Part shown: in pieces, positions 1,220 to 5,664 of the stretch | Position numbering within the stretch: the stretch's first letter is position 1 | Layout of the letters: each line of letters starts with the position of its first letter | Source: Granulicella sp. | Lineage (GTDB): Bacteria > Acidobacteriota > Terriglobia > Terriglobales > Acidobacteriaceae | Assembly: GCA_003133205.1 (NCBI GenBank) | Contig: PKWK01000389.1 | Span: 1 to 5,718 of the forward strand | Direction of reading: 5' to 3' | DNA length: 5,718 bases | Notes under the pieces: model-generated | Databases searched by the model: none | Told to the model about the DNA's origin: nothing | What the model saw: the letters and a program-made list of their open reading frames with translations, nothing else | Program-made: the position numbers and the translations under genes

Positions 1220-1373
1220 ACTGTCTTAAGGCTGCTATCGGTCTTCAACGGACCGTCGTGCAACGTTGTAATTCGCGGGCGGGGGTACGAAGCCCTCCGG
1301 CAGCTTGCCGAGGTGGAAGGCTTCTGAAGATGCGTTGCTTACCGGATTGGCGGAAGTAGCAGCAACACATAGC

Positions 1374-1661
1374 CTATTGCTCAACAAATCCCGCGTTGAC
1401 CAGATGTTTTCGAGTACAGCGGCCGTCAACGAGGACCCACCGACCGGCATTAAGCGCAACCTCGATCTGTCTTACATTCTCGACGGACTTGCCAAGAAGA
1501 TGTTCCAGTTGATAGGCCACGCGCTCAAAAAGGACTGGGCTATTAGGCGCGGTGGACCAGGAGCCATCATAGTTCTCGACGTTGACGGTGACATGTAGCC
1601 CTGCGGCGGTGTCTTGCCATGGTTCAAGTTGAAGCTTATTGGATTCAATTCTGTCTTGCAT
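1374..1661 (-). CDS. Possible hypothetical protein (95 aa), doubtful
   Basis: This frame has a balanced, protein-like composition, with acidic and aromatic residues such as NVENYDGSWS near residues 27-36. Its middle part (LFERVAYQLEHLLGK) should form an amphipathic helix. No motif, signal peptide or membrane segment is visible. The ATG at 1661 has only a distant GGAG, about 15 bases upstream. The plus strand is also open across much of this stretch (1305-1598), so the case rests on composition alone. The frame at 1235-1450, which overlaps its 3' end in another frame and ends with a plausible-looking tail (residues AFHLGKLPEGFVPPPANYN), may be the continuation of the same decayed gene. It could equally be non-coding. 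Confidence 0.25.
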   Translation of the reverse strand: MQDRIESNKLQLEPWQDTAAGLHVTVNVENYDGSWSTAPNSPVLFERVAYQLEHLLGKSVENVRQIEVALNAGRWVLVDGRCTRKHLVNAGFVEQ

Positions 1662-2294: not shown

Positions 2295-3077
2295 ATGACC
2301 GCGTCTGAAAATTCAAAGTTCGACCCCGTAGCCTTCCTGGCCAACTCGGGACTGGGACGAAAGCTCGTCAGCCTGAAGGCCAAAGAGGCTTTCTTCTCGC
2401 AGGGAAACCCGGCCGATTGCGTCTTCTACCTGCAGACCGGTCGCGCCAAGCTCACCGTCGTCTCCGAACGCGGCAAGGAGGCCACCATCACCCTGCTCGT
2501 CCCCGGCGACTTTATCGGCGAAGAGTCGATCGCCAGCGTCCCCGGCCTGCGCCTGGCCACCGCCACCGCCGTGACTGCGTGCACCGCGCTCAGGATTGGG
2601 CGCGACGAGATGATCCGCGTGATGCACGAGGAGCATGGCTTCTCTGATATTTTTCTCAAGTTCCTGCTCGCACGCGGAATGCGGACTCAAGCCGATCTCG
2701 TCGATCAGCTCTTCAACTCCAGCGAGAAGCGCCTTGCCCGCATCCTCCTGCTGATGGCGGAGTTCGGTAAGCCCGGTGAACCGGAGACGCTGATTCCGGA
2801 CATTACTCAGGAAACCCTGGCGGAAATGATTGGGACCACCCGGTCTCGCGTCAGTTTCTTTATGAATCGCTTTCGTGAGCACGGCTTTATCGAGTACAAT
2901 GGCCGCATCCGAGTCCACAAGTCGCTGCTCAATGTGATTCTTCACGATCGGTCCTTTGAGCAGAATTCAGTGAGTGCTCCCCTCGTGGAAACCGGACCGG
3001 GGCAACCAGAACCGACCCTGAGAAGAGCCGCTGCCATTGGCGTCAAGGTCAGACACCACGATGGGCTAAAGGACTGA
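2295..3077 (+). CDS. Crp/Fnr-family transcriptional regulator
   Basis: This is a cytoplasmic, presumably dimeric DNA-binding regulator of 260 residues. Residues about 15-125 form the cyclic-nucleotide-binding-type beta-roll, with the typical YLQTGRAKL (45-53) and PGDFIGEESI (70-79) turns. Residues about 127-153 are the dimerisation helix, and about 168-205 are the winged helix-turn-helix (QETLAEMIGTTRSRVSFFMNRF). Aligned by eye to CRP, the phosphate-binding Arg82 position is Arg86 but the next Ser is Leu87, so cAMP binding is doubtful. There is no FNR-type cysteine cluster, only Cys42 and Cys96. Residues 219-260 are an extra polar tail beyond the usual end of the family. The ATG at 2295 is well fixed: a TAG at 2250-2252 lies in frame with no start between, and AAGG (2283-2286) sits eight bases upstream. 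It converges on the trehalose gene. Its effector and targets cannot be read from the sequence. Confidence 0.93.
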   Translation: MTASENSKFDPVAFLANSGLGRKLVSLKAKEAFFSQGNPADCVFYLQTGRAKLTVVSERGKEATITLLVPGDFIGEESIASVPGLRLATATAVTACTALRIGRDEMIRVMHEEHGFSDIFLKFLLARGMRTQADLVDQLFNSSEKRLARILLLMAEFGKPGEPETLIPDITQETLAEMIGTTRSRVSFFMNRFREHGFIEYNGRIRVHKSLLNVILHDRSFEQNSVSAPLVETGPGQPEPTLRRAAAIGVKVRHHDGLKD

Positions 3078-3335: not shown

Positions 3336-5630
3336 CTACTTCGCTACTAGAACGTGTTCGGGCGCCGTGGACTTTGCGTCACTTTTGTGGTCGAGGCGAA
3401 GGTCGCAGAGGGTGCCGATGAGGCTGGCGGCCCACCAGTAGATATTGTGTTCCTTGACCGATCGGCGCATGCGATGCATGCGTTCGACCATTTGGTTGGT
3501 ATCCATCTTGAGTGCCTGGGCGATTGATTCGCCGGTGGCGCTGATGTCGTAGGGATTGACGATAATGGCATCCTGTAACTCACGCGCAGCTCCGGTGAAG
3601 CGGCTAAGGATCAGTACACCTCGCTCATCCTGCCTCGCAGCGATGTATTCTTTGGCCACCAGATTCATTCCATCGTGCAGGGATGTGACCATGCAGAGGT
3701 GGGCAGCGCGGTAGTAGTGCTCCAACTCATGCCGGTCGTGCTGGCGATTGAGAAATACGATCGGTCTCCACCTGCCGTGTTTGAAGCGGGCATTAATGCG
3801 GTTGGCCTCAGCTTCGACCTCCAATTGAAAGTCGGCGTATCGCTTGATGCGGGTGCGGCTGGGAGCGCCTATCTGGATGAAGGTGAACTTACCTTGGTAG
3901 CTGGGGTATCTCTCAAGAAAGCATTCGACGGCCTGGAATCGCTCGAGGATGCCCTTGGTGTAATCGACGCGATCAACGCCGATGCCGAGGAACGTTGCCT
4001 CGATTCCCAGCTCAGCGAACAGCGCGCTGCGTTCCTCTTGAGCGGACAAGTTGCTGCGAGCCTCAGGAATGTCGCTGGGCAATTCGACGCTGATCGGGAA
4101 CGGCTGGACGGAGGTGAGGTGATCATTGCGCTTGACGGAGAAGTGCTCCCAATCGACGCGCGACTCGAGGATGCGGTCTACGGTATTGAGGAAATTGTTG
4201 CAGTGACCGCGCACATGGAAGCCGATGAGATCCGCACCAAGGAGTCCATCGAGCAATTCGCGTTGCCACGGGCAGATTTCAAACGCCTCCGGTGTGGGCC
4301 AGGGGATGTGCCAGAAGATTGCGACGCGTGCCTTGGGGAGGCGATCTTTCAACATCCGCGGCAGCAGGGCAAAATGATAGTCCTGAATAAGGATCACGGG
4401 ATTCTCTTCGCCGGCGATTTCCTCGATGAGAGCGTCGGCAAACTTTTGGTTGACTGCGTAGTAGTGTTCCCAATCCGAAGCGCGAAAGATGGGGCGGGTG
4501 TGGGCGATGTGGCAGAGCGGCCAGAGACCTTCATTGGCAAACCCGTAATAGTAGCCTCCTTCCTGCTCGCGGCTTAGCCAGACGCGACGCAGGGTGTAGC
4601 GCGGTTCCTCCGGCGGAACCTTGAGGCGATCATGGGCGTCGACCATTTCAGCATCTGCGTCGCCGCTGCCGAGGGCAATCCAGGTCCCATTGCAGGCGCA
4701 AAGGATTGGTTCGATGGCGGTGACGAGGCCGCTGGCGGGAACGGTGACGGTAACGGTGTTATCGCGGCGGGAGTGAACATAGGGCTCGCGATTCGAAACT
4801 ACGAAGAGGCTGCTTTTGCCCAGCCGGTTGCGGACATAATCAGCCAACCGCTCAGCCGTCCACTGCGATTCGTTGGCATTGCGCAATCCTGCTTCGGTCA
4901 CTGCTGCAGCGCGGGCACGCTGCATGCTTTCCGCCAAAGGCCCCACCTCGCCGGCGAGCGAGAAGAGAACATCGAGATCAGTCGCGGCAGGCCGAACCGC
5001 GTCCTGGCCCGTCCGCAGGGCTCTTATCCACACAGCGACACGCGCGATGGGTCCGGTAAGGCTCCAGCGAATAATCAGCAGAGTGATGGCCACGATCACA
5101 AGCACCTGAATGGCCATGCGAACGAAGACGCGGCCCCAGATGCGGAAAATCTCGGTGCCAATATAGCCGCTGTCGTGAACTACGAGGATTCCGCCAATCA
5201 CCGTTTTATCGGTCGCATGCAGTGGGGCAGCAAGCACGTGGACACGCCTGAATCGCAGATCGGTGAAGGCGCTTATGTTGCGATTGTCCTGCATGGCATT
5301 CTGCAACAACTGAGTGAGAACGGGGAGCGAAGCATTCAGGCCGGGCGTTACGACCGGCGCAGAGTCATCGCGTCCATAGATTCCGACTCCCACCAGGTGT
5401 TCGCTGTTGCCGGAGGGCTCGACCAACTTCTCAAGGCCAACGCGGTCCCCGGTCGCGAGATATAACTCAGCGGTTCCGGCAAGGCTTTCGCCTACAGTTT
5501 CAGCTTTGGAGCCGAGGTCGCGACGGAGGGCATCCCTCTGTGCCCGTATCTCATACCACGACGAGGCGAGCGATACGAGCGAGAGTCCTATGGTAAGTGC
5601 GACAATCAATCGCCAACTTAGGATCCGCAT
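3336..5630 (-). CDS. otsA: Membrane-anchored, HAMP-linked trehalose-6-phosphate synthase (GT20)
   Basis: The GT20 domain (about residues 273-745) transfers glucose from UDP-glucose or a related donor to glucose 6-phosphate, making trehalose 6-phosphate. Counterparts of the E. coli OtsA residues are present: VVSNRE (Arg281), Trp317, the [12 protein letters not shown] segment (Trp370), QDYH (Asp417), WHIPWPTPE (His441), DRVDYTKG (Arg554, Lys559) and [10 protein letters not shown] (Asp653, Glu661). The N-terminus is a fusion: a transmembrane anchor (about 7-26), an extracytoplasmic region of some 140 residues, a second transmembrane helix (about 170-188) and a HAMP-like linker (about 188-243). 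The protein is 764 residues, against about 470 for plain OtsA. I chose ATG 5630 over the in-frame TTG at 5660 because it puts the anchor at the very N-terminus and has an AGG seven bases upstream. The first glycine of the usual GG donor loop is Ser300. No otsB is adjacent. The gene symbol covers the catalytic domain only. Confidence 0.93.
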
Positions 5631-5664
5631 AGTGTGGCCTGCCCCTGTTTCGGGAGACAATGAA

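Follow-up and report, generated by a model that had tools for sequence, protein, structure and literature searches.

The window, meaning the whole 5,718-nucleotide stretch analyzed here (positions 1 to 5,718 of contig PKWK01000389.1 from Granulicella sp.), encodes a 764-amino-acid protein in which an input module of the histidine kinase type is joined to a catalytic domain of glycosyltransferase family GT20. The interpretation judged most likely, because of anatomy and kinship, is that this protein is a transmembrane receptor-enzyme in which a trehalose-6-phosphate synthase (TPS), with activity set by the HAMP state, takes the place of the kinase output; this interpretation is favored with modest confidence. 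Sequence comparison and model building document the predicted anatomy, the homology between the input module and histidine-kinase sensors, a preserved set of catalytic residues, conservation among relatives, and the status of the fusion as the sole GT20 in 12 of the 13 relatives' genomes searched. A signal from outside the cytoplasm may reasonably be inferred to set how fast trehalose 6-phosphate (T6P) is made, with osmotic, desiccation, or envelope stress as candidate cues.

Domain architecture

The open reading frame (ORF) is bounded by an ATG start and a stop codon (Table 1), with an in-frame TTG upstream of the ATG at position 5660. The encoded protein begins with a first transmembrane segment (TM1), an extracytoplasmic domain of Cache/PAS fold, and a second transmembrane segment (TM2); a HAMP-like segment of divergent sequence and a linker then lead to a complete GT20 domain. 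The original prediction, made from the nucleotide sequence alone, had claimed a fusion of a transmembrane sensor, a HAMP-like linker, and GT20, with a complete biosynthetic glycosyltransferase as the output. This anatomy was confirmed by the ORF, the Pfam GT20 match, hydropathy, and AlphaFold2. A pseudogene was ruled out, as the reading frame has no internal stop and the active site is intact. An artifact or chance fusion was ruled out by the full-length architecture in relatives of three phyla (47 to 93% identity) and by ratios of nonsynonymous to synonymous substitution (dN/dS) well under 1 in every region. Both the enzyme part and the receptor-like part of the protein are well supported; the pairing is one of a known input module and a known enzyme in an uncharacterized combination. 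Databases already call such proteins trehalose-6-phosphate synthase.

Two main hydrophobic segments, with centers near residues 10 to 19 and 170 to 187 (offset by 8 in P0132), precede the enzyme and flank residues 30 to 155 in 39 of the 40 aligned members, in agreement with the expected two-helix topology. The exception, L019, has a matched stretch that starts past most of TM1. A third, weaker hydropathy peak near residues 301 to 304 in most rows falls within the GT20 domain. In the AlphaFold2 model (monomer, run on 40 sequences; mean predicted local distance difference test [pLDDT], 78), an alpha/beta PAS-like domain (residues 63 to 153) sits between the TM1 helix and TM2, consistent with a Cache/PAS fold between two transmembrane helices. 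Because the full-length fold search covered the GT20 part only, the N-terminal 275 residues were folded separately; they gave the same arrangement (pLDDT, 74.6), and the best fold matches of the predicted module were the WalK, CitA, and DcuS sensors. At E values up to 1, Pfam gave no sCache or dCache match in the window protein, and sCache_3_2 was listed for 8 of the 40 members (best E value, 0.0024). A match to MFS_1_like in the window protein was subthreshold. Identity with SMP_2 (“haemolysin virulence factor”), a label echoed in some source names of database relatives, was rejected, given that the match was weak (13 of 40 members; best E value, 0.013) and that the WalK/CitA fold fits better.

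Homology of the input module to histidine kinases

The N-terminal module was co-linear over 260 residues, with one gap, with two Acidobacteriota histidine kinases (L032 and L033), both of which have a HAMP exceeding the Pfam cutoff. At the sequence level, the input module and the sensor-HAMP modules of histidine kinases are homologous. The HAMP-like segment lies directly past TM2, carries a proline and a glutamate (P194 and E228) that are unchanged in all 40 aligned rows, and aligns without gaps to the HAMPs of both kinases (13 of 54 positions identical in each). Comparison by hhalign of the HAMP columns of alignment A2 with seven histidine-kinase HAMPs scored 31.8 (200 column shuffles: mean, 9.1; standard deviation [SD], 2.0; maximum, 17.2). 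With the two kinases whose HAMP was covered by the A2 match left out, the score was 21.1 (shuffles: mean, 9.1; SD, 2.3; maximum, 17.9), so that both runs scored above all 200 shuffles. AlphaFold2 placed helices at residues 192 to 207 and 223 to 251, followed by the GT20 fold. The segment is called HAMP-like because the Pfam gathering score was missed, and the earlier use of that term was apt, being supported by the profile comparison and the invariant P194 and E228.

The protein resembles WalK/CitA/DcuS-type sensor histidine kinases in the order of its transmembrane, Cache/PAS, and HAMP parts and in its homologous input module, but it differs from them in that its output is a biosynthetic glycosyltransferase. 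Neither HisKA nor HATPase_c matched the window protein in Pfam at E values up to 1, and the protein does not classify as a histidine kinase. None of the 44 matches to the N-terminal alignment indicated a separate sensor protein, under a length limit that barred proteins as long as the 503-amino-acid kinases matched in the genome search.

Catalytic domain

The Pfam GT20 profile (PF00982) matched residues 275 to 741 over profile positions 3 to 471 of 473 (E value, 3.6e-121), far over its cutoff (405.6 versus 32.5 bits); other glycosyltransferase models gave subthreshold Pfam matches only. The protein was scored at 15 positions that, by list and numbering, we take to be the OtsA active site. Equivalents were identical at 14 of these (R9, G22, Y76, W85, D130, H154, R262, K267, R300, D361, M363, N364, L365, and E369), among them R9, Y76, W85, and R300, presumably the glucose 6-phosphate (G6P) site of Escherichia coli OtsA; the single mismatch was OtsA F339, which corresponds to H631. 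No NCBIfam cutoff was reached, whether for the OtsA equivalog (430.1 versus 564.85 bits), bifunctional PRK14501 (484 versus 634 bits), glucosylglycerol-phosphate synthase (291 versus 569 bits), or trehalose-phosphate synthase PRK10117 (270 versus 759 bits). Given the missed OtsA cutoff, the protein was filed as an OtsA-like GT20. T6P is the presumed product, with a putative specificity for nucleoside diphosphate-glucose and G6P. Compared to other GT20 synthases, such as E. coli OtsA and M. thermoresistibile TPS, the window protein falls short of the NCBIfam OtsA cutoff; E. coli OtsA has neither a sensor nor a HAMP-like segment.

Conservation and copy number

Among the 31 loci found, L031 alone matches just the GT20 part, and the contig ends within L028. 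Close relatives with the whole architecture (L001, L002, L010, and L014) are 85 to 93% identical, and the whole architecture extends down to 47% identity in Acidobacteriaceae, Sulfotelmatobacter, Elusimicrobia (Elusimicrobiota), and a Bacteroidetes genome (Bacteroidota). Relative to L010, L014, and L001, dN/dS was 0.14 to 0.28 in the sensor and 0.07 to 0.14 in the HAMP, linker, and glycosyltransferase regions; judged from these substitutions, the architecture is under purifying selection.

Exactly one GT20 was present in 12 of the 13 relatives' genomes searched, which were picked for holding the fusion and are of unstated completeness; the culturable relative Edaphobacter modestus (L026) is among those with a single GT20. 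The remaining genome (Bacteroidetes) held two, both with a sensor match, and all 14 GT20 domains lie in open frames of 750 to 804 amino acids. In the Acidobacteriota sample, GT20 was over the cutoff in 106 of 297 genomes. The Bacteroidota gave 24 module matches in 18 of 296 genomes, only 6 of which (in 4 genomes) spanned the module in a frame of 750 to 769 amino acids; adjoining GT20 was checked for G011 alone. Matches occurred in 358 of 72,556 plasmid records, none covering 80% of the query. One plasmid relative from Aminobacter (605 amino acids; 52% identical over residues 257 to 745) shows that shorter kin exist outside the tree sample described below. A further protein, P0157 (208 amino acids, on a contig of 13,225 bases), matches the N-terminal 208 residues of the window protein exactly and ends inside the HAMP region, which is probably a contig edge or a shortened copy.

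GT20 clade and membrane fusions

A tree was built of 46 GT20 domains, chosen as long frames, A2 matches, and varied rows, so that proportions within it are not frequencies. The GT20 domain of the window fell in a clade of 29 rows (support, 100/99), made up of 17 rows in which a sensor-like part accompanies two membrane segments, 8 with 10 to 12 upstream hydrophobic segments, and 4 unfused rows. Pfam found Na_H_Exchanger (PF00999) in seven of the eight multisegment rows (L035, L037, L038, L039, L040, L041, and L043); the eighth, L036, had no Pfam match in its membrane part and is likely also a Na_H_Exchanger fusion. Acidobacteriota chains thus join an upstream ion exchanger to a trehalose-phosphate synthase. 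Outside the clade lie 17 rows: the 15 that were scanned had no in-frame upstream membrane segment, and E. coli OtsA and L031 start at the GT20 domain. Four sensor-fused enzymes (L034, L042, L044, and L045) form a second group of greater divergence that retains the WT motif of the linker.

It is conceivable, with the balance tilted slightly against it, that this soil-bacterial GT20 subfamily serves as a plug-in output of membrane modules (sensor-HAMP or Na+/H+ exchanger), whereby extracytoplasmic signals or ion flux would directly control trehalose synthesis at the posttranslational level. Such a “receptor-synthase” would stand in place of the route through a two-component system and transcription. 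It would also hint that one enzyme family has received different membrane input modules by swapping, a natural experiment in protein wiring.

Proposed mechanism and alternatives

In the proposed receptor-enzyme, the WalK/CitA-like Cache/PAS domain would bind a cue or partner outside the membrane, and the resulting change would be carried inward by TM2 and the divergent HAMP-like segment, presumably in a dimer. The HAMP state may then set the activity or assembly of the OtsA-type output; the response would lie in its active-site loops or in its dimeric or oligomeric state. T6P would be produced as needed, with neither a phosphorelay nor fresh transcription, and trehalose would follow via a separate phosphatase. 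Of the original interpretation, the sensor/HAMP-like/GT20 anatomy held and was sharpened by the homology to kinase sensor-HAMP modules; the gating by a signal that it also proposed keeps the conditional form given here.

Several observations weigh against this mechanism. The Pfam HAMP profile (PF00672) matched residues 187 to 240 at 13.0 bits versus a cutoff of 25 (E value, 0.14) and was listed at E values up to 1 for 7 of the 40 members (best, 0.054); the Pfam check proposed earlier therefore failed at the cutoff, and the profile comparison with kinase HAMPs was supportive. The hhalign probability fell from 91% to 34% once the two kinases matched by A2 were removed (five left), and pLDDT was just 52 to 64 across residues 181 to 260, HAMP part included. 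In the divergent group, the HAMP proline is missing from all four members and the HAMP region is shortened in L034, L042, and L044; as far as sequences tell, a canonical HAMP is dispensable across the wider group. The WT motif ahead of the GT20 domain occurs in that group and in L051, and unfused L065 has a similar one. Because of this counterpart in L065, the linker is no evidence of signal transmission. The Aminobacter relative, whose alignment starts at query residue 257, is too short to hold a sensor module. The WT..RL linker was accordingly dropped as a dedicated transmission helix and probably belongs to the enzyme instead of forming a signaling element of its own. No otsB was found in the window, and no HAD gene end was found in the 88 bp upstream of the synthase, where the window stops and beyond which a gene is possible.

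The main alternative gives the N-terminal module no role beyond anchoring and dimerization: TPS would be kept at the membrane, ungated, perhaps close to exporters, the envelope, or a supply of sugar nucleotides. This is unlikely but carries appreciable weight, in that the HAMP is divergent and subthreshold and that Na_H_Exchanger can be the membrane part in the same GT20 clade, where tethering may be a common need. The purifying selection on the extracytoplasmic Cache/PAS fold (the sensor dN/dS range above) and the homology of the module to kinase sensors, which a plain anchor does not require, argue from sequence against a plain anchor without demonstrating gating. It is improbable that another product (for example, glucosylglycerol phosphate) is made rather than T6P and a different solute controlled. 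Although the missed NCBIfam equivalog cutoffs and the presumed F339-to-H631 difference would fit such a product, the OtsA model scores well over the glucosylglycerol-phosphate synthase model, the presumed G6P-site positions are identical, and 21 of 30 loci have an OtsB-like neighbor, which a Pfam check of two identified as Trehalose_PPase. Outward or sideways signaling, in which the catalytic domain would sense uridine diphosphate-glucose, G6P, or T6P and the membrane module would report to a partner, is very improbable: HAMP modules can in principle pass conformational change both ways, but nothing direct favors it, and the recurrent neighbors are phosphatase genes and, farther off in some loci, TreT, with no obvious partner.

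The receptor-enzyme interpretation has parallels in HAMP receptors whose output is a cyclase, a diguanylate cyclase, or a phosphatase, which share the logic of sensor, HAMP, and enzyme in a single chain; their outputs make or remove signals, whereas that of the window protein would be bulk protectant synthesis. HAMP-bearing receptors are usually taken as signal makers, and a bulk-metabolite synthase output would depart from that. A one-protein path would lead from an outside cue to osmoprotectant synthesis, with no second copy in most of the genomes searched. Among the literature matches listed, in which subscription papers were for the most part not included, there was no account of a sensor, HAMP, or transmembrane TPS architecture or mechanism or of exchanger-TPS fusions. 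The nearest case, compared by description only, is Geobacter sulfurreducens GSU2337, presented as a protein “containing a domain” that shares 37% identity with M. tuberculosis TPS, with the phosphatase GSU2336 named next to it; that description does not mention a sensor or HAMP (PMC2700814).

Table 1. Features of the window (TM, transmembrane segment; A1, alignment A1)
Feature	Residues	Positions	Strand	Basis
Complete fusion gene (Cache/PAS sensor, HAMP-like segment, OtsA-like GT20)	764 aa	3336..5630	-	ORF; full-length relatives, 47-93% identity
TM1, running on into a long periplasmic helix	about 5-27	5550..5618	-	Hydropathy in 39/40 rows; AlphaFold2 helix 2-60
Cache/PAS-fold extracytoplasmic sensor domain (predicted)	30-155	5166..5543	-	
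TM2	156-188	5067..5165	-	Hydropathy peak of 2.65 in window protein; AlphaFold2 helix 155-188
Divergent HAMP-like segment	189-240	4911..5066	-	Pfam 13 bits; kinase HAMP alignment; hhalign; P194/E228; AlphaFold2 helices
Linker/cap with W257, T258, R261, L262	241-272	4815..4910	-	9/32 columns invariant in A1
GT20 trehalose-6-phosphate-synthase-type catalytic domain	273-745	3396..4814	-	
Crp/Fnr-family regulator, convergent neighbor outside the fusion		2295..3077	+	cNMP_binding, E 1.9e-18; HTH_Crp_2, E 7.7e-13

Gene neighborhood

Each of the OtsB-like genes adjoining the synthase also matches E. coli OtsB. A HAD gene (Hydrolase_3) lies upstream in 4 of the 30 loci, all in the window's own clade, and ends 28 bp upstream of the synthase in L002 and L010. 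Neither an OtsB-like nor a HAD gene was found in 5 of the 30 loci, the flanks of the loci being of unequal length and L028 incomplete. Pfam identified TreT near the synthase in L012 and L016, and genes of the same sequence cluster occur in L018, L020, L021, L025, and L030.

DNA similarity between window positions 3336 to 5633 and L010 positions 5998 to 8295 (92.5%) is confined to the gene, and similarity to L001, L002, and L014 also ends near its edges. The differing flanks suggest, at the level of DNA comparison, that the synthase gene has been reshuffled as a unit. A separate stretch (window positions 1343 to 1661) is 80.9% identical in DNA to L014 positions 4880 to 5194, upstream of the HAD-synthase pair. 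It holds a 95-amino-acid ORF (positions 1374 to 1661, minus strand) that has no Pfam match and is conserved yet unnamed.
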